Source: Tipula vernalis
Taxonomy: Eukaryota > Arthropoda > Insecta > Diptera > Tipulidae
Reading direction: 5' to 3'
Assembly: GCA_958295665.1 (NCBI GenBank)
Contig: OY282558.1
Location: 28,851,045 to 28,915,044 of the forward strand
DNA: 64,000 bases
Shown here piece after piece: positions 6,901-49,100 of this stretch (positions are counted from its first letter, which is position 1; every line of letters starts with the position of its first letter). The notes below the pieces were generated by a model. The model ran no database searches. It was not told the origin of the DNA and saw only the letters and a program-made list of their open reading frames with translations. The position numbers were made by a program, and so were the translations under genes.

Positions 6901-9318
6901 ATATAATTCTTCTTGATGTGTTTTGCACTTTTTTTCTCCAAATTTTCAAGCCAATGTACACATATGTACAACCACAGAAAACAGAATAGCACCCATTATC
7001 TTCTCTCTCTCTACTGACAGCTAAACTGAAAAATGAAAAACGTTAAGCACCCTTGCTTATTTGAACCAATTTATGTTATTTTAAATCTATTATATTTTAA
7101 ACTTTAACTATACATTGTCGTGCACCAACTACGAGATTGTGTGATTGTCAATTTTACTGTGGATTCATAATTTTTTTTAGCAATAAGATTAGATCTGTTT
7201 TGTAGAATAACACGTTAAGCCATACCGATAAAAGTGTAGATTTCATGTAGACAATTTTTCTAAAGCTTCCATTTCACCCTCTAAAGTATTTTAATTGTCT
7301 TAATAAAATATTTAAATACAAATTAAATGGTCATAGATTTAGGATTTACAGAGACTTTCTTATTTATGAATGGTTAAATAAAAATCTATTTTATATACAT
7401 ACATATGTATATGTACATACCTACGAATACCAAAAAAAAAAAAAAAAAATAAACATCCCCTTCAAATTTTATAATGATTTTATTTTGCCATATAAACAAA
7501 GAAACGCAGTTAAGATAATTTAAAATAAAATTAAACTAAAGGCGAGGGGTTCCAAAAAAGGAAGAAAATTTTCTTATAAACTCGAAATGGCATACAATAA
7601 TAATAACCTCCATGTAGCAAAGGAAGAAAAGGTTTAGAATCTGTTTGGAATGAGCGGATGAAATTAGTATGAATGAAAATTATAATAAGATACCTCTCTT
7701 GGGGTACATTAGTTACGCGTAGTGAACTTTTCTTCACGAAACAGCAACAACAACAAAAGAGTCATTTTCTTAGTCTATAAAATACGATTTTAATAGCATT
7801 GTGCAACTTCTTAACAGCGATTATGATGAATATGTTTTTTGAACTTAGGTTTTTTACTTTCTAATTCCCACTACACCAAGAAAGATATGGCAGCTTATGA
7901 ATTCATGTCGTGTATATGTGTAGGCATAATGAAATGATCATTAAATTAAAATGAAATGTGTGAAGGTAGCAGAAATTTTTTATTTTTATGAATATTGTTT
8001 TATGTTCGGAGCGGGAACAATGATTTCATCTCAAGATTTTATGTGAATTTCTTCCATTTTTTACTTGACAAAATCTATAAAAATGAAATCATGTGAAAAT
8101 TATACTTGAAAAAATAATAAAAATGTAATAATTTTTAAATTTCAGCCAGTGCGAGTGTTTCCCATATAAAAATCAACAATACTTCAAGTTACATAAAATG
8201 TATTATAAACTGGAAAATTGTGTAACAATTATCACTATCATTGAGTGGACATTTTGTGTCAATGAATAAAACTCGATTATTGAAACTTTTTCATGCGTTT
8301 AATCTAATATAAATACATATAATTTATAGTCTATAGACATAAATTAAAAAAATTTCCCACACAGAAATTAATTACCTCAAGCTTTTCTATAGAGATATGC
8401 TTGGAATACCAAATAATATAAGCTTCTTGTGTTCTCTTACAAAATAATTTTTTTGAATGAATACGAAAAATACATCCCTTTATGTACTTCAGTACAACAC
8501 AGTTGCTTTGTAATCTGTAACAACTTAAAAAGTCTTTATTTTGCTTTCTGAGGTCATTTTATGGTTTAATGTTTTGGACTGTTGGACTTTTGAGGTAGCA
8601 CCTATTGAAACCAACCAAAGTGATGTAAAAAGAATAAAATAGTATAATGATCTTTACAATTTTTTTTATACAAAGATCAATTCCACAAAAAAATTTGATA
8701 CCGTTCTTTTAATTACTTTAATGTTTATCTGTGGGCCCAGAATCACGTCTCTTAACTGTAAAATGTATCAGATCTCATTGTAAAACAATATTAAAAATAA
8801 AGTGAACGATGGGTTCAGTCGTAAATGGAATTTTGTACAACCCTTTTTGTGCAATTTTTTATTATTTTTATGTATTAAGAAAAGAAAAAACACCACATCA
8901 AATGAAGATCATCGCCACGCCACTTCATTTTTAATATTTTACGGTAAGGTCGATTAAGTTGAACAGTTAAGAGATATAAATATGCCTTTGCAGATACGCG
9001 TAGATAAAAGCCGATATTCATGTACACTTCAATTGCGCAATATAACTGTGAGATAACAGCATTGCGCAATAAAATTGAAAATTTCGAATAAAAATTGAGT
9101 ATTTTGTGCAATACACACGATAATATTGTATAATTTAATTGTACATGAATACCGCGCTTAATAGACTCGGTTTAGATACAAATTATAAGCATCAAATAGT
9201 CCGCTATCGAGCTTATAGTGCTATTTATTTTTAAACTAAATTTATGTGACACCAATATATAAGTTTCAATTCAATTGCACAATGAAAATAAGTATTTAGC
9301 TTTATGCCCAAGGCTTCT
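3976..9318. other. Long AT-rich intergenic stretch, no gene recognised
   Basis: I read both strands and found no convincing exon, RNA gene or transposon protein. There are simple-sequence tracts, such as the ATAC/poly-A run at about 7395-7450. The short frames here have no recognisable composition or splice context. Confidence 0.4.
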
Positions 9319-10348
9319 TTAAAACTCGCAGTGAAATTGTTCCTTGAATTTTTCATTTATTTCTTTAAACTTTTCTTTAACGAATTTATTTTCACAATCA
9401 TCATACTTCGGTAGACAGGTTATCATTTTCTTGATAAATCTAAAATGCACAAAAATATATACATACATAAGTATATTATATAGTGTGTTTAACAAAATCA
9501 CAGAAACTTACAGACATAAATTAGCATCCGCATAAAGCTCGGCCGAATTCATATCAATATGTGGCTCCGTAGCATTGATACAGGCAATATGTTGCTCATT
9601 TTTCACAATACACCCAGCACCATCACCTTTAACAACAGCTTTATAACCTTCTGCACTATTTGCACACAGCTCAGTGACAACAATTAGCAAGAAATCTTCT
9701 AAATTTAATTTCTTCTCGAAACGCCTCTCGCTCAAACACTCATCATTTATATGCGCTTTGTAATCGACCCGGCAAACAATTGTCGAATGGAATAGTGGAC
9801 ATGTGCTATCAATTAATTCCTCGAATTCACTTTCTGTTATTTTGCCATCGGCGAGATGTAAAAAATATTCTTGAAGTACTGTTTCACTAAAATTACCCGA
9901 AGTACAATTTGAGTATGCCTCCAGTAAGTTTTCATATTGTTCATCACAAACATTAAGATGTTCAGCTGCGATTAAAACCGCTTTACTCGTTTGTTATAGG
10001 TAATAAAGGTTTATAAGCGATTTAAAATTATTATATGAAATGTATTTCCTTGACAAATCCACAACAAAAGTAGAAATTAAATAAGTGAAAGAAAATATTT
10101 GATTTATTTAAATCTTATTCGAATTATTTGTAAAAGTACCGGCCACTTGATGTTTTTCATATGAAATTAATTTCGAATGGTTGGCTACTTTTCAAAATAA
10201 ATTAAATTTGACTTTTCTGTTTCCTTGGAAAACAATAAAATCCAAAATAATTCAAATTAAATTTTTCTCAAGAAAATACGCTGTTTGATGAACAATGTAC
10301 TTGTTTACTTATATACATACCAAATGCGAATAAAATTAGATACTTCAT
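9319..10348 (-). CDS. Small secreted cysteine-rich protein (27-kDa hemolymph glycoprotein / DUF1397-like), copy 2
   Basis: Three exons on the minus strand: 10348-10321, 9965-9512 and 9439-9319. Introns of 355 and 72 bp have GTATGT and GTAAGT donors and CAG/TAG acceptors; phases agree, giving 603 nt (200 aa plus TAA at 9321-9319). The start begins MKYLILFAFA, a short hydrophobic leader typical of a secretion signal, followed by EHLNVCDEQY. Cysteines follow C-x8-C-x11-C-x23-C-x17-C-x9-C, and the lysine/glutamate-rich C-terminus ends FHCEF. The same spacing is seen in the genes at 1-543 and 57267-57871. From recall this matches DUF1397 secreted insect proteins, whose biochemical function is not firmly known. 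It lies about 500 bp from the ribozyme-bearing inverted repeat at 10855-11304; no functional link is shown. Confidence 0.8.
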
Positions 10349-10898
10349 TGTACAATATACTTTGCTACACTGTAGTTATTTTTATTTACAATTATCAGAA
10401 AATTGGTTTAGTGCTCTATGACCGAATGATCCAGTAGATACACTATAGACCCAGTATAGCTATACAGTATACAATAGATACAGTGTAGCTTCAATAAAGG
10501 CAAATTTTTAGTTAAATAATGAATTATTTATAGTCATTATTATTTGTATTCTGTACAATATACTGTTCGTATAATTCAATGAATTTCAATTTAGTAAACC
10601 AATAATTTTGTAGCATTGTTTATTAACCGCATTTAGAACATTTGCAAACAAAAGTAAATAATAAAAGAGATACAATGTTCAGAATGGCGACCTATCCGTT
10701 TTGAACAACTCAATTCAGCAGTACAAGGTATATTTTATTAATGAATAAATTAAGGGGTTAATGAATAAATTAGTTATTATTTTATTAAGAGGAGCTTGTA
10801 AACAAGCCTTAGCTAATTCATTTAGATTAACCAAAAACATAGTTTGAAAAGGTAATATGATACGATTTTAATAAGTTCCGAAGATTGTAAGAGAATTC

Positions 10899-10971
10899 AA
10901 TCCAGTTTCGAATTGATGAGCTTATGATTATGAAAAAATCAATGTTCTCATCAGGCCGCGGCGACTGGACT
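10899..10971 (-). ncRNA. Type III hammerhead ribozyme motif (left arm of inverted repeat 2)
   Basis: This is the mirror copy on the minus strand. Stem III 5' strand is 10971-10964, C17 at 10963, stem I 10962-10955, CTGATGA 10954-10948, stem II GAAC from 10947, GAAA 10909-10906, and the 3' strand 10906-10899. Stem III extends to 8 bp here with one G-U pair. Stem II keeps only three pairs (GAA/TTC), because the fourth is C opposite A. The core is intact. Confidence 0.7.
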
Positions 10972-11192
10972 GATTATACCACAATTAACATTCTATATTT
11001 ACGGAATGTTCTGTGCGTTAAGTACTAGCGAATCATACTAATACAGATGAACTAGAGAAAACAGAAATAGAGCTGTGTGAATATTGTGAAGAAGAAAAAT
11101 TGTAAGAGAGTTCATCTGTATTAGTATGATTCGCTAGTACTTAACGCACAGCACATTCCGTATATATAGAATGTAAATTGTGGTATAATCAG

Positions 11193-11261
11193 TCCAGTCG
11201 CCGCGGCCTGATGAGAACATTGATTTTTTCATAATCATAAGCTCATCAGTTCGAAACTGGA
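11193..11261 (+). ncRNA. Type III hammerhead ribozyme motif (right arm of inverted repeat 2)
   Basis: Core elements in order: stem III 5' strand 11193-11198, cleavage triplet GTC 11197-11199, stem I GCCGCGGC 11200-11207, CTGATGA 11208-11214, stem II GAAC 11215-11218 pairing with GTTC 11249-11252 across a 30-nt loop, GAAA 11253-11256, and stem III 3' strand 11256-11261 (ACTGGA pairing with TCCAGT). All conserved core positions of the family are present. Stem I would close with only a two-base loop, or could pair between molecules because it is self-complementary. Activity is inferred, not shown. Confidence 0.75.
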
Positions 11262-11304
11262 ATGAATTCTCTTACAATCTTCGGAACATATTAAAATCAT
11301 ATAA

Positions 11305-13800
11305 TTAAATAAATAGAATTCTGTCTATTAGTCGGTTTCGTTGAATTACTGTTCGTAAATACTAATATATTTCTAGTGTTAATAAAAACACATTTAAAAA
11401 GGTCTAATCACCGGTAGCATATTAGAAATTACATGAATTAATTAACATTCAACAAAAAATCAATAAAATAAAAATAACAGGATACCGATAATTATTTGAA
11501 ATCTATACTTACTTACGAAAAAAAAAAGTTCTCAACTCAGTTATACAACAACTTTAAAAAAGAAGGATTTGGGTTGCGATTCTTTGTGTGTTTGGCGCAA
11601 GTTTGATTGGTAGTAAAAAAATCTGAAAATTATCTTCCGGCAAATATTAAGACTCACAAGATTTTACCCCTCCCAATTATTTTATTTGTTATTTTCTTAT
11701 GAGTCCTCTCTTATCCTCTCTAATCTTCTTTAATCCCATATAGATAAATCGGTGTGTGTATGCCAAATGCCTTACTCATAAATAAATAAATGTCTTAATA
11801 GGAAGATAACTAGCATTTTGTTAAAATAAAACCAGAATTTATATTTTGTCAACAAATTTATCAATTTCTTGTATACTTAGAATATAGGTATGCGACCAGT
11901 ATATACGAGGGTGTAAATATCTTATTTACAAAGATTTGTTTTGTTGCTTTAATGTTTGTTTTATCTTAATTTGCCGGAAATACGATATACTCGTACAAAC
12001 GAATTAGAATACCAACACGACACTAAAATGAAATTAAATACTTAATCAGTGGAGTTTCTGCCCGTTTCATTTAATAAGAGCCAAATTAACTTATTTCCAA
12101 ATCAATATCGAGAGATACACTAACCCAATGACCTTTTTTTTTTTTAATTTTTTGCTGCTGGTCGTCGTGATGTATTTTTTTGTCCTGTCTTTGAAGAACA
12201 CACAATCAATTTGATACTCCTTTACGGTTACGCTTTTTTGTGTATTATACGGTCGAAAGAAAAAATACCGAACAGAAAATAAATAAAAATATAAATTCCG
12301 ATTCTCATGGGAATAGTTTAGAAAAATGGTTTTTTGTTTTGTGCTCTCTTGTTTACAAATGTTAAGGGTCAATCCATCATTTTGTAAAGGGTCAGTCAGG
12401 TAGTTTACCAATGTGTACTGTAATGCAATAAATAGCGGGCGGAATAATTATTTTATTGAATAATAATGGTTTTTGATTCTTTGGGGGAAATGTGTGTGAA
12501 GGGAAATTTCAATTGATATACATAATAAAAATAAATAAGAAATCAGCGGAGTGGTTATAGCATTCAAGATAATAATGTGAGCATATTTACAGTTAATAAA
12601 TAATAGAATTAATTTAATGTGATCCAGTCCAAGGCTACCTAAAGAGTAATTGTTTAGAATAATCAAAACTAAGATTTTTATCTTCTAATAAGATTTTTTA
12701 ATTTCCTTTAAATTAAAAACAAGAAAATGCGGATGGAAAATTAAACTACATATTTTGTTAATAAACGCACATAGCGATATTGTTGTTTACCAGTTTGTTG
12801 TACATTTTCGTCATGCGAACAAAATAAGTTTCTTTGGGAGTTGTGATTGTCTGTATGTTAATAAAGGCAACAAAATATTTGATAAAATTTACTGTTGTTT
12901 TGACTGTTCTGAGTGTAATATAAGTTTTTTGTGCTTTGGTGAAGAAAACGGGTAGGATGAGAGAATAATGCAGCGCGCGGAATGGGTTGTGTTGTTGAAT
13001 GTGTTAGTTGCATATAGATAGATATTTTTGTTATGTTGTACAATGTATGTACATAAAGAACCAAATAGATTTCAAAGGTTTTATTTCAAGATAAGAAATC
13101 AGAGGGCGTGAAAATTGAATTGTTTATTTTTCTGGTATTTTGATGTGTTGTGTATTTATCATTTTGAATTTGTAGTATACTATAATTGCATTTTTAGGAA
13201 AAACGATAAAAATTTGTGGTTTTAGTATAGATAGTTTTTTGTTTCAATTATTCAGTGTTTATTAGCCATTTTCTAAAAAGCAATCAGAATCATCAATTTT
13301 TTTAAATTTGGCAAGACTACACTCATAAACACGAGTACTTATAGGTTAGGTTATAGGTTAGGGTGACTGTCTCCAGGACCGGCATAGATACAAAAACGGA
13401 CTGTAGCAGAGCCTTCTAGAGTATAGAGCCATAATCATAATGACGTATTTTTTAGAAGCTTTATTAGTGGTATAACTTTTCATTGATTTCCATAGGAATC
13501 CATAGAAAAAATGGTGTTTTTTAGCTTCAAGTTTTTCAATGAAAAAAGCAAATATATTATAAAACGTTTACATAAATGTTTTCTACATACCTTGAACAAC
13601 AACATTCAGGAAGACTATTGTTATTGAATAAATATTAATTGCAGAAATATTAAAATTAAACTTTGCCTAAAATATATTTTTCGAATTTCCATTTTGAAAG
13701 AAAAAATCAAATTTGGCTCTGATGAATTAACATAATACTTGCTAAATTTATCTTTAGTCTTACTAGCGTACGTAAGATATCTAAAATATTTACAGAAAAA
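11305..13800. other. AT-rich intergenic DNA with one degenerate TTAGG-type block
   Basis: No gene is recognised. About 13341-13440 contains TTAGGTTA repeats followed by a GC-richer stretch like the one near 1690. Diptera lack TTAGG telomeres, so this is taken as a dispersed repeat. Confidence 0.4.
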
Positions 13801-14320
13801 TACGAAAAAAAATTATTTAGTCACAAAATTATCACTCGTACTTAACATTTTGTGAATTTGTTTGCTTTTCCTACAATTGTTTTACTTGAAATTTCCTCAG
13901 GTGGTAATTTTTGGTATGATTTTATCAAATTTGCGCGGCCATCACTGCAATCTATGTAATGTATATTGACTTAATTACAAAACGAATTGTAGTAAGCTTT
14001 TATTTTAATTTGACCAGAATGCTGTTGTAATGAAATTTTTTTATATTTTGGTTTAAATAATTCAATTAGTACAAGAAAATGAAAACGATTTACTTAAACG
14101 ATATTCATATATGTTGAAATTCAAATATTTAGGAAAGTATTTCAGAAATCATAATTAAGAATTTGTAACGTTTTCATTTAAAAATTTGTCTTAGGAAAAA
14201 AGTGATTTCCCATATGTTTTGTGTATTTTACTATGAAAAGTTTGGTTTTTTCCTCGTTTCTAATTTCTTTATAAAAGCTGTGTTTTTAGACTATGGCTTT
14301 GTATAATCAAGGTTGCTTTA
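13801..14320. repeat. Dispersed repeat R-AB, copy A (empty site)
   Basis: This stretch is clearly similar over about 500 bp to 30301-30539 plus 31054-31340: for example the blocks ACTTGAAATTTC, CGGCCATCACTGC and GACTATGGCTTTGTATAA occur in the same order. Copy A runs straight through TATATTTTGGTTTAAATAA, where copy B carries a hairpin insertion. No protein is recognised. Confidence 0.8.
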
Positions 14321-25444: not shown

Positions 25445-25593
25445 CAAAAATATTCTCTGATCCTAGAGTTCTTGCCAATTGATCACATACATAATGAAGT
25501 AACTAGAAGCTATCCCCCAATATCAAAAAAATACCTCCCCTATTTTTGCGGATCGTCAGGGGCTTACACCTTCATTTGGTAGCATATCGTTCT
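25445..25593 (-). repeat. Inverted copy of the 169-bp repeat unit
   Basis: The reverse complement of this stretch matches the tandem units at 29370-29790, including CCCCTGACGATCCGCAAAAA, GGAGGTATTTTT, TAGCTTCTAG and CAATTGGCAA. Its last 21 bases (25573-25593) are the left target-site duplication of the element that follows. Confidence 0.85.
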
Positions 25594-29364: not shown

Positions 29365-29790
29365 AAACAAAAATTAAGTCAACAACAAATTATAAGCCCC
29401 TGACGATCCGCAAAAATAGTGGAGGTATTTTTTGATATTGGGATAGCTTCTAGATACTTTATGATGTAAGTGGCCAATTGGCAAAATCTCTAGGATTAGA
29501 TCCACAGAATTTTTTGTTTAACCAATTTTTGTTTAGAACGATATGGTACCAAATGGAGTTATAAGCCCCTGACGATCCGCAAAAATAGGGGAGGTATTTT
29601 TTGATATTGGCATAGCTTCTAGTTACTTCATGATGTAAGTGGCCAATTGGCAAAATCTCTAGGATTAGATCCACAGAATTTTTTGTTTAATCAATTTTTG
29701 TTTAGAACGATATGGTACCAAATGAACTTGTAAGCCTCTAATGATCCGCAAATATAAGGTAGGTATTTTTTGTTATTGGTATAGCTTCTG
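29365..29790 (+). repeat. Tandem array of a 169-bp repeat unit
   Basis: The anchor GATCCGCAAA recurs at 29405, 29574 and 29743 (period 169 bp), with about two and a half units decaying to the right. Neighbouring blocks TAAGTGGCCAATTGGCAAAA and AGAACGATATGGTACCAAAT recur in register. An inverted unit lies at 25445-25593; removing element E2 joins the two head to head. Confidence 0.92.
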
Positions 29791-30592: not shown

Positions 30593-31058
30593 AATATTGA
30601 AACACAATTTTTTATTTTATTTTTATAATTTACGTATTATATTCTTTAATTTGTCGATGTATTTAAAATAATAAATAAACAACACATTAAAAAAATTTTT
30701 ACATTATGAAAATACACACAAAATTGTTATAGTTTTAACTTTCATTAATGTGACAATGATTTATTTAATTTCTTGGAATACGGGTTTCGGACGTTCGTCC
30801 TTCTTCAGTTCCTAATTGACTATTAACTCGTGAGTTTTTAGTCAATTAGGAACTGAAGAAGGACGAACGTCCGAAACCGGTATTCCAAGAAATTAAATAA
30901 CATTAATGAAAGTTAAAACTATAACAATTTTGTGTGTATTTTCATAATGTAAAAATTTTTTTAATGTGTTATTTATTTATTATTTTAAATACATCGACAA
31001 ATTAAAGAATATAATACGTAAATTATAAAAATAAAATAAAAAATTGTGTTTCAATATT
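30593..31058. repeat. Long inverted repeat 3 with Penelope-type hammerhead motifs
   Basis: Arms 30593-30822 and 30839-31058 (about 220-230 bp) are nearly perfect reverse complements around a 16-bp loop; the left arm carries a 9-bp extra block. Each arm holds a hammerhead-like core. Inverted or direct terminal repeats with hammerhead motifs are known for Penelope-like retroelements, which also insert with variable target duplications, so this may be an RT-less Penelope end structure. Confidence 0.9.
30849..30886 (+). ncRNA. Type I hammerhead-like motif with two-base-pair stem III
   Basis: Stem I GGAA (30849-30852) pairs with TTCC (30883-30886). CTGAAGA is at 30853-30859, followed by one extra A; stem II GGAC/GTCC is 30861-30872 with loop GAAC; GAAA is 30873-30876; stem III AC/GT has a two-base loop; cleavage would follow A at 30882. 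The mirror copy lies on the minus strand in the left arm (about 30779-30814). Such very short stem III forms are reported in Penelope-like elements and tend to act as dimers. The extra A after CTGAAGA lowers certainty. Confidence 0.55.
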
Positions 31059-37050: not shown

Positions 37051-38338
37051 TTGGGTGTGTGAATATGACTCCACCCTTTTTTGTTAAAATAAAACACATT
37101 TGCTTGTTTAGAAAATGAAAGAATTATTTATTGAAAGTATGCTCCATTTGCAGCTACAACTTTCCCCAATTTTTCAGGCAGTTTGCGGATTCTCTCTCTG
37201 AAAAAATCTTGGTCTTTGGAGGCGATCCAATCATTAAGCCAATTTTCGATCTCTGCGCGAGAACTAAACCGCTGTTCAGAAAGAGACGACTGCATCGACC
37301 GGAATAAGTATAATCTGAAGGAGCTATGTCTGGTGAATACGGCGGTTGGCGTAGAACTTCCCAGTTCTGTCCTTGTAAATAATTTTTCACAACGTTTGCA
37401 ACATGTGGTTTTGCATTGTCATGCTGAAAAATTAATTTGTTGTGTCTACTCACCCATTCTGGTCGTTTTTCCTCTATAGCTCGCTTCAAACGTATTAGTT
37501 GTCGTCGGTACACATCGCCATTGATAGTTTCACCTGATTCCAGCAGTTCATAATATACCACACCTTTCTGATCCCACCAGATACAGAGCATAACCTTATT
37601 GTAATGGATATCTCGCTTTGGTTGCGATGGATCAGCTTCACCACGCTTCACCCAAGATTTTTGGCGTTTGGGATTCTCATAATAAATCCATTTTACATCT
37701 CCAGTAACTATCCGATGCAGAAAACCTTTTCTTTGTTGTCTTTGAATCATTATTTCACAAATGGTTTTTTCGACGTTCGAGGTCTCTTTCTTTTAATTCA
37801 TGTGGAACCCAGTTGCTAGCTTTTTGAACCATTCCCATTGTTTGTAAATGTTTTGCAACAGTTGATCGATCAACATTTAATGATACAGTCAATTTTGATT
37901 GTGTTTGAGAAGAATCTTCAGCCAATAACGTTTCCAATTCAGCATCTTCAAATTTTTTGGGTGGTTTTCCATGCTCTTTATCTTCATTGACAAAATCATC
38001 ATTTTTAAATCGTCGAAACCATTCTTTGCACGTTGTATTCGGTGGAGCATGCTCACCGTAAATTTCCACAAGCAAACGATAAGTTTCCGCTGCGCTTTGC
38101 TTTGCAATAAAATAATGTAATAAAACTTCCCGCAAATGATGTTTATTTGGAATAAAATTCGACATTTTGAAAGAGTTAAAAATACTATTTGTTTACACTT
38201 CAACCAAATGTCGTATACTGCGTTTGATAGCTGACATAAAGTACTATAGAATACAAGTATTGCGCATTTATAGTTTACGTAAGCAGTAAAAATAACGACA
38301 CCAATTGAGAAAGGGCGGAGCCATATTTACACACCCAA
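37051..38338 (-). mobile_element. Mariner transposon, both terminal inverted repeats present
   Basis: The 1288-bp element is flanked by TA at 37049-37050 and 38339-38340. Its terminal inverted repeats begin TTGGGTGTGT on both strands and extend about 30 bp with a few mismatches (TGACTCCACCC versus TGGCTCCGCCC). Full length is normal for mariner. It encodes one minus-strand transposase with two frameshifts, so it is inactive as a source of protein but could be mobilised in trans if its ends are functional. Confidence 0.95.
37128..38165 (-). pseudogene. Mariner transposase, two compensating frameshifts
   Basis: ATG at 38165, TAA at 37130-37128; 1038 nt overall, a usual mariner length of about 345 codons. 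The N-terminal DNA-binding part (38165-37755) begins MSNFIPNKHHLREVLLHYF and includes a CKEWFRRFKNDDF helix-turn-helix block. After one extra A in a homopolymer near 37775 the frame continues with FLHRIVTGDVKWIYYENPKR (first Asp), then FQHDNAKPH (second Asp) and YSPDIAPSDY (third Asp, 34 residues later), the D,D34D signature of mariner. A one-base loss just after PSDY (near 37310) shifts the C-terminus, which then reads through to the stop. One insertion and one deletion leave the total length divisible by three. Confidence 0.93.
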
Positions 38339-40169: not shown

Positions 40170-43100
40170 CTTTACAAAAAAAAAAAGTATTAAGGTTAAA
40201 AATAAAAAAATGTGTATGAACTAAAAATAAACTACCTTGTTGGACTAGGCGGTCGATATGGCGGTTCACTACAAACACTCGCAGCACCAGTTGTGTACCT
40301 AAATGCTGGTTCACTATAAACACTACCCGCATCTCCAATTTTGTACGCTGGTGTAACTTCAGCCATTGCTAATTGCGACGTAAATATCTCCCGTAGACGA
40401 GCTAATTGATCAAATTGATGTCTGCAAATAGGATAAAGTAATTTAAAAAATATCCATCAATTCTTATTGGAAATTACCTCGTTCTGTCACCAACACCGCA
40501 TTCACTAAAAGCATCGCCAACATTAAAGCTAGATACAACTGAAATTTCTCCGTTACTTAAAGCACTCAATGGATGTTCACATCCCATAGTTCTTGCAATT
40601 TCCTCTTCGGTTACTTGGAGTCCACAATCCATCATCTGAACTGAATGACTATGTATACTTTCATGTGACATATGCCGCGAGCATATCAGATGCAAGCTAT
40701 CGTGACTGATTTCGCGTGAGCTAAGTGGTTCGATTAATGGTAACGCTGGTGGAACTTCAGAGGGACCACTATCCTGATCTTCCTCTTCACCCTGCGAATC
40801 GTTATTTTGATTCGCTGCCACATTAAGTTCAACAGATTTTTCCGACTGAGCATCGTTTTCTTGCTGCACCAAACCAGTTCGTATACAACTTTCCGATATA
40901 TTTTTGCCACTATTACTAAGCACATTCAGGCCTCGCGCCAGGGGATCGATAATTTTATCACTAGACTTGCCGTTCGATTGTTGATCGCACTCTGATCGAC
41001 TAGATTTTTGCTGTGTAGTTGCACGCGATGCTGTTGCTCCTGCCGTCAATACTGATTGGTGTATGGGCGATGAATTTTGAGAAGTTAAAATTTGAGTCGT
41101 CTGATTTTCAACCCATTGGCGTATCATAGTCTTTTTATGGCTATCCATGAAGCCGTAACCACCTGGGCTAGTATTTGTGCCAGGTAGAGAAGTGGCAGTT
41201 AATGATTTAGTAGGTTTGGTATTGGGGCCATCGATCCAAGTTTCACATTGTTTAACATGATTTATTTCGCGTAATAAATGTCGCGCCTCAGCAACCTTGG
41301 CACGTGATACACGAGGACCATCAATCCATTTTTCTTCAACGGTTTTTCTGGATTTTGATGGGCTTTCAGGGGTCGCAGAACCTGTTAAATTTGGACGTCG
41401 TAGTGGTGAACCTTTTGGCGTAGGGACATTTGATCCCTTACTGGTCGATGTGGTTGAGTATTTGAATGGTGATGATGGTTGTAATTTTTGGGGACTAGCA
41501 TATATATTGGAAGAACTTATTTTAATAGGTGAACCATGTAATGGACTAGAAATTGAAACAATATCACTATTGAGGGGATACGCAATAAATGATTGGTTTC
41601 GTTTTAGGCTATCAATTCGTTGTGTCGTTGTGGCGGCTGTTGTGATTGGGCTCTGAGCTGTAAAATAAACAAACAAAATTCAAAACACATACCATATAAA
41701 CCTAATGGTAAAAACAGTTTACGTTTTGGTATTGTTGAAATTATTGAGTTTGCTGGACTACTGGTTTTCGATGGAATTTTACTAGGTTTTTCCACTCCTG
41801 AACCTTTAAGCGCTTTATTCATGGCACATCGATTATCCTCTGCTAAACCGAGAGAGGGCAAATAAACCGGAGGATGTTCACCATCAGTTTGATCGTCACG
41901 CGGACCCATGTAAATGACTGTATCGGCTGAAAAATCGGAACTGGAAGGGTCCGGGCCTTCCGAAGAACCACCTGATTGTTGATTTGTATTACCGTTTTGT
42001 AACTGTTTATCTACTGAAATTGGAAATCTATGTTTTCTTCTACGCATTCTATGAATTCTTGAAGCTAATTGAATTGTTGTAAGTGCATCGGTATGAGTCT
42101 GATTAAGGAGTACACGAGTAAAAAATAATGAATGATTGCATACCATATTATGATTATTAAAGAGCAAAAGTTACCTGTGAATGTAGAACATGGGCTATTA
42201 CAGCAACGTGACAAGTTAATGGTGCTAAGCAGTCTTTTAACAGTGGAGTAAGCGGGTGATCCTTATTCGGTGGGTGCCTTTGTCCACTTAAAATTGATAA
42301 AAATGTATTTCCTATACCGGATAGTGGTAGGCCACCTGACCTATTTGCACATCCACCCAAATCGATTAAATGCAGTCGGCTTCGACCACCGGCAACTGTA
42401 AATCAAGTCATTTGATTGCAAGATTAAATTAAATGTAATTATTTAGTTATTCTTACCTCCACCCCTCCCAGCCAAACTATACTGGTATACATGAAGCGTA
42501 AATATAAATGCTGGATCTAGGTTTCCTTGCGGTCGACCAGCCAAAGCGGCATCTAAAAATAGTGCAGCTCGCTCAGGTGTTGGTGCGCGTAATTCAGTAG
42601 GCCCTCCCAGAAAATCATCTCGTAAATAAACTCCTGGCGAATCATCGGATTCTGTAAAAAAAAAATATTCAAAACATGAAAATTAGATTTTCCAATTTTC
42701 GTTTTTTTTTTTTGGTTTTTCCATTTGTGAACAATCACATCTGTGCACTGTATTCTATATAGTCTCTTGAAAACAATCAAACTTTATTATCAATAAAAAA
42801 TAAAAAACGGGAACATTCTTTTGTATTCAACTCACGTTTTCGAAAATGTTTTTCCGTTTGTTTCCTCTTCATATGCTTTTAATAAATCGCCTATCATACT
42901 TATATTGACATGGGAATTATGGATACCGAAATATTGTTTGGTAACACAGCCAGGCAAAGGCAATAATAAAAATCTAAATTTTGCCACATTTTTACATTCA
43001 GGTAATTGTAACGTGTGTATTCACGGAAAACATGCATTGGTTTAGCAATAATTTGAAATACGAGAATTATTTGCAATTAAAAATACTTAATCCTTACAAA

Positions 43101-46100: not shown

Positions 46101-49100
46101 CAATTTAAAGATAGTAATCACTTCATCAGTATTCCTTTTCGAATACTATTCTATTACGTGGTCCGCAGCTTAATCTGTCAAATACTTAATTAGTGACCAT
46201 TATCCATTATCCATAAGGTTAGTAGTTTTTGTAACGGACTTGGAAGATCTATTGAGTTTTGCAGACTCTTGCTGACTCTTCTTGAAAGAAAATCATCTTT
46301 TTTACTGCATATCTTACAAATCTCCAGTTAGATTTATGCAAAAGCGAAAAACAAATTTCTCCCGCCCTATGAATAAGAAAACTAATTACATTCGTTTAAT
46401 TCAATTTAGAAATATTTATTAATTTATAGATATTCCCAATTGACCAAATTACAATAAAATACGAAAACTCTACAGGGAATCCAAATTTCTACCTTTAAAA
46501 ATCGAATATATTGGGCCCCAATCGAAAATCGATTATTGTAAATTTTCAACACAATGCAATAAAAGCTGATATCGTTCGTTAAATGGTCATTATTATTATT
46601 GTTCTTTATATGTACTCCAGAGAAACTATAAATGTGAGGAACACACTTCCTTTCTTCCTAACAATATATAAAAGCAAAATACATCTGTTAATCTTTATTT
46701 CTCCTTCTCGATTTCCTTAAGAAAATCACACAAAAGTGTCATAAATTCGAAAGTTAAATGCGTCTTCCAGATTTTCTATATTTTATTTTCGACATACAGG
46801 GGAGAACGAGTGGAACACATCTGTGATTTAAGAAACATTGAAATGATTTTATTTAACAATATTTTTTTTGACACACAGTAAAAAAAACAGGAATAGGAAG
46901 GGGACGAAAGCAACGAGGAAAATCGAAAAAAATTACGTGAACTTATTTTTTTATTGCCTCAAAGAAAGCAACAAAAAAAAAATGAACAAAAAGAAAGTTT
47001 TGTGTGTGAAAAGTAAGATGTCTTTAAAAGCTGGGACACTTTTGTTTCGTCTCGAAAAACATATCGTGTTACATTTACATTTATTTTTTTTCGGGATCCA
47101 AAATAAATAAATAAAGTAGCAAAAAATATTCGTCGCTGTAGTGTAACAATAGCAATTGTACTCATATTGAAATCTCGTTTTTTATTTACAAAAAATATTC
47201 CGTTCAATTTAAGTACACACACACACACAATACACATCTTGAAGACATGATATATAATTTCGATTTTGTCATTTTCGTTTTTAAATTGAAGTATTATGTT
47301 ATGCAAATATTTATGTCTACATGTTAATATTTTATTTAGATAGAATTTATAAAAATAAATTAGTGTCTTTTATCATCTACAACTCATTAATATTTTCTTC
47401 AAGTTGCAGACAAAAACATTTCTGTTTTGCGAATTCGAAAAATCGAATTTAATTTACGCGCTTTTACTCTATAGCCTCTCTAGATGACGATGAACATTTT
47501 TTTGTCAAAGGCGGATCATTTACAAACTAATAAACATTTTTACTTTTAAACGAAGTTATATGTATTGGGTAAGTTTTGCAACCGCGAAAAATTTTTGTTC
47601 CGCATTTTCATATTTCCTGAAGAATTGGATTTCAATTGACCCATGAACTTCCTGGGCCTGTCAAAGACTCTATGGGCGTACTTGGCGACTACAACCAAAA
47701 ATGATCTACTGGTCATTTCTTACAATCATTAGGCCCATGGTCACCTACGCATCGGTTGTATGGTGGCCTAAAATTGAGCAGAAGGCAACGCAAACCTTAT
47801 TGAATAAGGTTCAGCGTGTAACCTGCATCGGTGTTACGGGCTCAATGAAGTCATGTCCAACCGCGGCGGTGGAGACACTTCTAGGACTGACACCGTTACA
47901 CCTGCATATTAAAAAGATGCTGCAATTATGGCCCTGAAAATGCAGGCGGAAGGAAATATAAAACCAGGCAATATGGTGGGTCATCTGGAAATCCTTAAGG
48001 AATTTCAGACAGACCATACCGTAGGAATGCCTTCCGACTGTATGCCAGCTAAACTGGACTTCCACAAACCATTCTGTGTTAGGTTACCTGACCGGTATAT
48101 GTGGAGGGCATGGGTCCGTGGTATGGTTTACAGATGGATGGAATACACGGGAGTGGCACTACCCTCTCGAAGTCCTTGGTTACCAATGCCACCGTTTTTC
48201 AAGCAGAAGTACATGCTATAGAACTTTGCGCTAGGATAGGCATAGCAGAAGGCCTAAACGATGCAAAGATTTATATTGTATCAGACAGCCAATCGGCCTT
48301 AAAAGCTCTAAGGTCTTGTACCGTTAAGTCAAGGCTGGTATGGGATTGTCTGAAGGTTATTAAACATCTGGCAGGCTCAAATAAGATAACACTTATGTGG
48401 GTGCCAGGTCATACTGGAATCGAAGGAAACGAGGCAACTGATGGCCTCGCCCGTGAGGGTTCTGCCCCATTTATTTGACCAGAACCCTTCTGTGGTGTCA
48501 CTAAGGGACACCTTAGAGCAGCGGTAAAACGCTGGAAGGATGTTCAAAAGTCCTCCTACTGGCGCAGAATTCCAGGTTTACGACAAGCGAGGAAATTTAT
48601 ATCACCTTCGTCTGTCAGGGTTAAGGAGTGTCTTGAACTTAGGAAACCTGAGTTGAGGCTGCTTACTCGCTTCCTCACAGGTCATGCCCTCTTAAGGTAT
48701 CACCTTAAGAAGATGGGCCTAAGTACGACAGATGGATGCCGCTTCTGCGATCTGGAAGCGGAATCAGCGGAACATGTTCTGTGTCATTGCCAGCCATTTT
48801 CCAGCAAAGACTGCAACATCTAGGAGGAAGAACAATGAGCCCAGATAGTATGTATCTTGTACCGGCCAGTAGAATTATCAGATTCAGTAAGAGCCTGAAT
48901 ATTGGCTGGACGGATAATTAAGTAGGGTCCAGCACAATGGATGTTTTAGGTCGCGGTGCGAGGTGGCTTATCGCCCACATGGCCCTTCAATCAATAATAA
49001 TAATACCCCATGAACTCGTCGATGAACTCATGATGAATTCCACAATGAGTTATCAGATGTTCAGTGTGCGCGCCAGATTAAAATCTTTTATATAACTTTT

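Follow-up and report, generated by a model that had tools for sequence, protein, structure and literature searches.

The pLTRs of Penelope elements are inverted, measure about 180-220 bp and contain a TATA box as well as an initiator-like site; the head-to-head inverted junctions of these elements have been attributed to self-priming (PMC3846280). In addition, these pLTRs comprise minimal type I hammerheads (PMC7761336, PMC11167929). Type III hammerheads in animals, dipteran genomes included, are already known as well, with reports from termite genomes and from Drosophila pseudoobscura, Rhagoletis, Musca and Hermetia; in the dipteran and termite motifs, as described there, stem I is long, contains an internal loop (GCCR) and has an additional hairpin, and a pseudoknot connects to loop II (PMC7936874). 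Two further systems are related by their folding, namely the hpRNA loci of Drosophila, at which a long inverted repeat gives rise to a long hairpin transcript (PMC10292708), and the viroid-like RNAs, which combine one hammerhead core per strand with a rod-like fold (PMC7461866). In the titles and abstract openings searched, no paper reported an inverted repeat with type III cores in both arms.

Such an arrangement is found at 10.9 kb of the window, i.e. the whole 64,000-nt stretch of Tipula vernalis DNA analysed here (Table 1). We tentatively explain it as a snapback duplicate of about 200 bp from the 5' end or terminal repeat of a retroelement, bearing a promoter and a silent hammerhead core that would be either a relic or an accident; this explanation is given slightly less than an even chance. 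The locus shares with Penelope-like elements, as these are described, the head-to-head repeats of about 200 bp, the TATA box with an initiator-like site and the hammerhead core in each repeat. Contrary to their minimal type I hammerheads, the core determined here is of type III, so that the link to Penelope is one of layout only. Since the hammerhead type is wrong and no reverse transcriptase was seen, membership in this group is not claimed. With the dipteran, termite and HDV-like type III motifs (PMC7936874), as far as these are described, it has the type III order, the animal genome and the isolated position in non-coding DNA in common. It differs from them in its stem I of 8 palindromic nt and its loop II of 30 nt.

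Table 1. Positions of the repeats, hammerhead-like cores, competing hairpin and promoter-like motifs in the window.
Feature	Positions	Strand	Basis or remark
Left arm of the inverted repeat	10857-11053	-	197 nt
Spacer between the arms	11054-11108		55 nt
Right arm of the inverted repeat	11109-11305	+	197 nt
Type III hammerhead-like core, left arm	10901-10969	-	Hammerhead_3 26.9 bits; descriptor scan; arm alignment
Type III hammerhead-like core, right arm	11193-11261	+	core letters; Hammerhead_3 27.7 bits; descriptor scan
Competing hairpin, CTGATGAG (11208-11215) / CTCATCAG (11242-11249)	11208-11249	+	MFE fold
Promoter-like pair, left arm: weaker box TAAATATA, initiator TCAGTC	10968-11001	-	predicted start A 10971
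Promoter-like pair, right arm: TATATATA 11161-11168, initiator TCAGTC 11189-11194	11161-11194	+	predicted start A 11191
Second snapback repeat	30593-31058		inverted-pair search
Inner arms of the second repeat	30761-30829 / 30832-30900	head-to-head	inverted-pair search

The original prediction had described an inverted repeat with arms of about 195 bp, and this repeat is real. It spans 449 bp overall, and the arm-to-arm alignment showed 8 mismatches in 197 positions, which leaves the two sides about 96% complementary. The longest run without a mismatch between the arms comprised 73 nt (P of 0.21, rising to 0.41 when the eroded edge is left out), and the differences between the arms give no sign that the core was specially spared or is under selection. 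Tandem or single-arm copies, which the original prediction had proposed to look for, did not appear: BLASTN of the repeat, its spacer and its flanks against the 64-kb window returned no further copy of an arm, and the tandem repeats in 8000-14000 included no array of the arm unit. Around the repeat, no target-site duplication was detected beyond the 5-nt AATAA at 10870 and 11308. Stop-to-stop frames overlapping 10850-11310, where a reading frame for a reverse transcriptase or GIY-YIG domain might be expected, did not exceed 50 aa, the peptide encoded by the arm (11134-11268, minus strand) had no candidate in the protein collection, and no reverse-transcriptase remnant was seen beside the repeat.

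Within the spacer, the 25 nt at 11070-11094 were 84% identical to 9672-9648 on the opposite strand (BLASTN against the window, E of 0.008 for the spacer alone and 0.081 for the whole repeat). The latter stretch lies inside the 161-aa frame of a possible three-exon gene at about 10348-9319 on the minus strand, which would encode a small cysteine-rich protein with a signal peptide. For this frame, neither a homologue nor a Pfam match above the cut-off was obtained. Since a stop-free run of the same length occurred in 6 of 60 random windows, the stretch may not be a gene. The idea that the repeat serves as the promoter of this neighbour was dropped because the start of the possible gene appears to lie near 10348.

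All core letters of a type III hammerhead that had been claimed for each arm, i.e. NUH, CUGANGA, GAA and the A15.1-U16.1 pair, are present in both. On the plus strand of the right arm, TCCAGT (11193-11198) and C17 (11199) are followed by GCCGCGGC (11200-11207), CTGATGA (11208-11214), GAAC (11215-11218), GTTC (11249-11252), GAAA (11253-11256) and ACTGGA (11256-11261). Read outward from the centre, both arms comprise TCCAGT-C-GCCGCGGC-CTGATGA-GAAC...GTTC-GAA-ACTGGA (right-arm letters), with CTGATGA at 10954-10948 and C17 at 10963 on the minus strand of the left arm, the latter placed by registering the arms. The variable core positions hold the usual choices (GUC, CUGAUGAG and CGAAAC). Given that one arm is a copy of the other, the two cores count as a single occurrence. 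Non-circular permutations of the hammerhead, as described in PMC10085705, are not needed, since the order is that of an ordinary type III. A reading of these arms as minimal type I was likewise rejected, as there is no GUH after GAAAC, no stem I pairing and no match in the minimal-motif scan.

The stems deviate from this regular picture. Stem II of the left arm comprises 3 bp with C.A as the fourth pair (10913 differs from 11249), and its stem III is, as originally described, longer than that of the right arm, with 10 bp including one G-U in the MFE fold instead of the 8 bp stated. For stem I, we agree with the original prediction that a loop of 2 nt is implausibly small: GCCGCGGC is a perfect palindrome in both arms and leaves nothing more for the loop. 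In the constrained fold, stem I kept no more than 2 bp around a 4-nt loop. Loop II comprises 30 nt, and a looped stem I able to contact it was not found in either arm.

In a descriptor scan for type III hammerheads with stems of at least 3 bp, these two sites were the only ones on both strands of the window. The chance expectation, a product of simulated factors, was about 1.1e-3 per window for stems of at least 3 (I), 4 (II) and 6 bp (III) with G-U allowed. Among 400 Markov windows, 2 type III matches were obtained with a stem III of at least 4 bp (0.005 per window) and none with a stem III of at least 6 bp and no insert. Compared to the Hammerhead_3 model (RF00008), the right arm alone scored 27.7 bits over 11192-11262 (E of 1.7e-4 for 101 bases and all families) and the left arm alone 26.9 bits over 10970-10900 (E of 2.7e-4). 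Neither value reaches the gathering score of 48.5, an outcome that the original prediction had named as one part of a refutation, and Infernal returned no match at gathering score to any Rfam family in the whole window. By linear scaling, 27.7 bits would be expected about 2.5e-5 times per window for Hammerhead_3 alone and about 0.1 times for all 4227 families. An Rfam scan of 1001 bases at E up to 10 gave five rows, none of them a hammerhead. The microRNA rows in the Rfam scans at 10.9 kb and 30.8 kb are generic matches to long hairpins, all below gathering. Altogether, the core match is better than the average accident, yet a scan over many windows would yield some of this kind.

The folding of the arms can be described more directly. 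In the right arm, CTGATGAG is perfectly complementary over 8 bp to CTCATCAG, and in the left arm 7 of these 8 positions pair; this pairing within the same arm had been overlooked in the earlier reading. The minimum free energy was -27.3 kcal/mol for the right arm compared to -11.9 kcal/mol for the enforced hammerhead, and -27.4 compared to -13.5 kcal/mol for the left arm, so that by nearest-neighbour energies, which like all those given here contain no tertiary contacts, the hammerhead is about 14-15 kcal/mol worse than the competing hairpin (z of -4.69). When transcripts with differing start points were folded, the core was paired in all 6. Since CTCATCAG is transcribed before GTTCGAAA, the decoy should also be the first of the two structures to form. 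A transcript of the whole repeat (453 nt) was predicted to be rod-like with -319 kcal/mol and a buried core, in agreement with the original idea of a long duplex hiding the ribozyme. However, because CTGATGAG finds its partner in the same arm, the core would be hidden even in a single-arm transcript. Based on this predicted fold, the core is taken to be silent: its letters are present, self-cleavage is not expected, and the description as a canonical, self-processing ribozyme appears weak, also in view of the score below Rfam gathering.

In each arm, a TATA-like box lies 30 nt before the A of the initiator match TCAGTC, and both pairs point outward. The pair of the right arm is the only combination of TATAWA and TCAKTY on the plus strand of the window, whereas that of the left arm was found only with the looser box TAWAWA, the strict TATA being confined to the right arm. 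A box with an initiator would be expected on both strands of one arm at 0.009 (strict) or 0.026 (loose). Since the motifs had caught the eye before any count was made, and since their frequency in the whole window is near random (2 strict pairs compared to a random mean of 2.97, 11 loose pairs compared to 8.37), they are at most suggestive of a promoter. A genuine promoter would place the transcription start at the base of stem III. A scan for promoters and terminators with a model of bacterial promoters gave no excess over shuffled sequences.

Snapback repeats are common in the window, with 9 inverted pairs of at least 40 nt within 3 kb. At the repeat near 30.8 kb, a minimal type I core as in Penelope occurs in each of the inner arms, with CTGAAGA at 30853 on the plus strand and at 30808 on the minus strand and H17 at 30882 and 30779. 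The arm motif reads GGAA-CTGAAGA-A-GGACGAACGTCC-GAAAC-NN-GTA-TTCC, in which stem III has 2 bp and an additional A precedes stem II. The minimal type I scan, which was written after the motif had been seen, found only these two sites in the window and 2 matches in 800 Markov windows; Rfam gave no hammerhead row for the motif. Compared to the repeat at 10.9 kb, this second repeat fits the Penelope-like elements better. A third snapback repeat at 1874-2257 has arms of 98 nt (98%) and 41 nt (93%), and no hammerhead core was seen in it.

Several other elements were observed in the window. A tandem array at 29390-29789 comprises 2.4 copies of a 169-bp unit with a 51-nt inverted end, and another stretch of this unit lies near 25559 on the minus strand. 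A mariner-like transposase at 37154-38192 (minus strand) is split over two overlapping frames, with the Pfam domain Transposase_1 in the frame 37154-37792, and an RNase H frame at 48092-48478 (plus strand) probably derives from a non-LTR retroelement. Exons similar to kinesin family member 26 were found at 40474-42170 (minus strand); the frame 40474-41679 is similar to 179 proteins, and the name is the one that a source gives to proteins among the 120 of these matches listed. Together with the transposase and RNase H frames, this frame gives the window the look of animal, probably insect, DNA.

From the layout, size and orientation of the arms, the promoter-like motifs and the parallel at 30.8 kb, we infer a retroelement end joined head to head. 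About 200 bp of the 5' or terminal repeat of a transposable element would have been duplicated in this way, similar to the inverted pseudo-LTRs of Penelope-like elements. Each copy would point outward and carry the TATA box, the initiator and, where the RNA is predicted to begin, a strong stem-loop. This stem-loop holds all type III core bases, but nothing is left of the loop of stem I, with GCCG and CGGC abutting, and in the predicted fold the CTGATGA box is bound by its perfect partner in the same stem-loop. On this reading, the hammerhead is either a relic or arose as a chance match, and this copy would be catalytically inactive; the choice between a decayed ribozyme and an accident is close to even. 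Transcription across the full repeat would yield a hairpin RNA, a potential input for RNA interference. The missing second copy of an arm in the window, the lack of a recognised reverse-transcriptase remnant and a flanking repeat of only 5 nt (AATAA) count against an origin from a retroelement end.

A substantial possibility, well short of an even chance, is that the hammerhead letters came together by chance in an ordinary long hairpin, be it a hairpin-RNA locus, a foldback or a MITE-like element, the snapback repeat itself being a real feature. About 1e-3 loose matches are expected per window and scans of this kind read many windows. Moreover, CTGATGAG is explained as one side of the hairpin with its z of -4.69, long snapback repeats such as 30593-31058 and 1874-2257 are frequent, and nothing in the window reached Rfam gathering. 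However, an accident would not readily account for the usual choices at the variable core positions and for a score of 27.7 bits, which on linear scaling corresponds to about 2.5e-5 per window for Hammerhead_3. Among the hairpin loci, those of Drosophila described in PMC10292708 share with the repeat the long inverted repeat and the long hairpin transcript, whereas no target gene is apparent for the repeat at 10.9 kb. The cores could also go back to a circular RNA of the viroid-like or HDV-like kind, rod-like in fold and bearing a hammerhead in either polarity, that was copied into DNA. One type III core per strand and the rod-like 453-nt transcript would agree with this, as would the RNAs from fig, about 357-360 nt long, in which both strands are described to bear a hammerhead (PMC7461866) and the HDV-like type III hammerheads described from termite and dipteran genomes (PMC7936874). 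Nonetheless, such an origin is very improbable, because the 96% complementary sides look like a duplication, the ends of the repeat do not coincide with the cleavage sites, and the long stem I and extra hairpin described for the dipteran, termite and toad motifs (PMC7936874) are absent here. The exact 21-nt core string also had no match in viral contigs, where an insect-like element would hardly be expected. Contrary to the viroid-like RNAs of PMC7461866, as described there, the repeat is genomic with near-identical arms.

For a retrozyme-like mobile element, i.e. a tandem repeat or LTR unit that its own hammerheads process, the position of a hammerhead core within a terminal repeat of suitable size would be fitting. 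Since retrozyme hammerheads are described in direct order, those of animals being of type I (PMC7229834), while the two cores here are inverted, and since no tandem array with such a unit occurs in 8000-14000, this origin seems very improbable. The original prediction had also left room for a stem I formed between molecules. Accordingly, GCCGCGGC would pair with the palindrome of a second RNA, so that stem I reaches 8 bp and two active sites are formed. Both arms have the palindrome without a mismatch, hammerheads requiring a dimer are described from amphibians and from Penelope via stem III (PMC7229834, PMC7761336), and for an Aedes repeat a dimer has been put forward (PMC3088659). The calculated energies do not support this rescue: the double hammerhead amounted to -36.5 kcal/mol for the right arm and -30.1 kcal/mol for the left arm, compared to -65.7 and -68.3 kcal/mol for the unconstrained homodimers, and the dimers described in the compared papers use stem III, not stem I. 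We therefore regard an intermolecular hammerhead as unlikely. Its elaborated form is a remote prospect, namely a type III hammerhead in the end of an animal retroelement that functions only when joined to a second molecule via the palindromic, loop-less stem I. It would sit at the very 5' end of the transcript, so that cutting takes off the cap together with the first 9 nt, and the decoy hairpin and the inverted copy would keep the core off until two RNAs meet.

If the dimer at 10.9 kb should prove true, it would represent a hammerhead in which stem I, not stem III, enforces the pairing. If the core is a relic, as the snapback duplicate of a retroelement end would allow, the locus would be a head-to-head duplicated end that has kept its ribozyme letters while these were silenced by the duplication itself, and it would show how easily a match in core letters is mistaken for a working ribozyme. 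The presence of two different hammerhead-bearing snapback repeats within 64 kb suggests that such copying of ends may be frequent in this genome.
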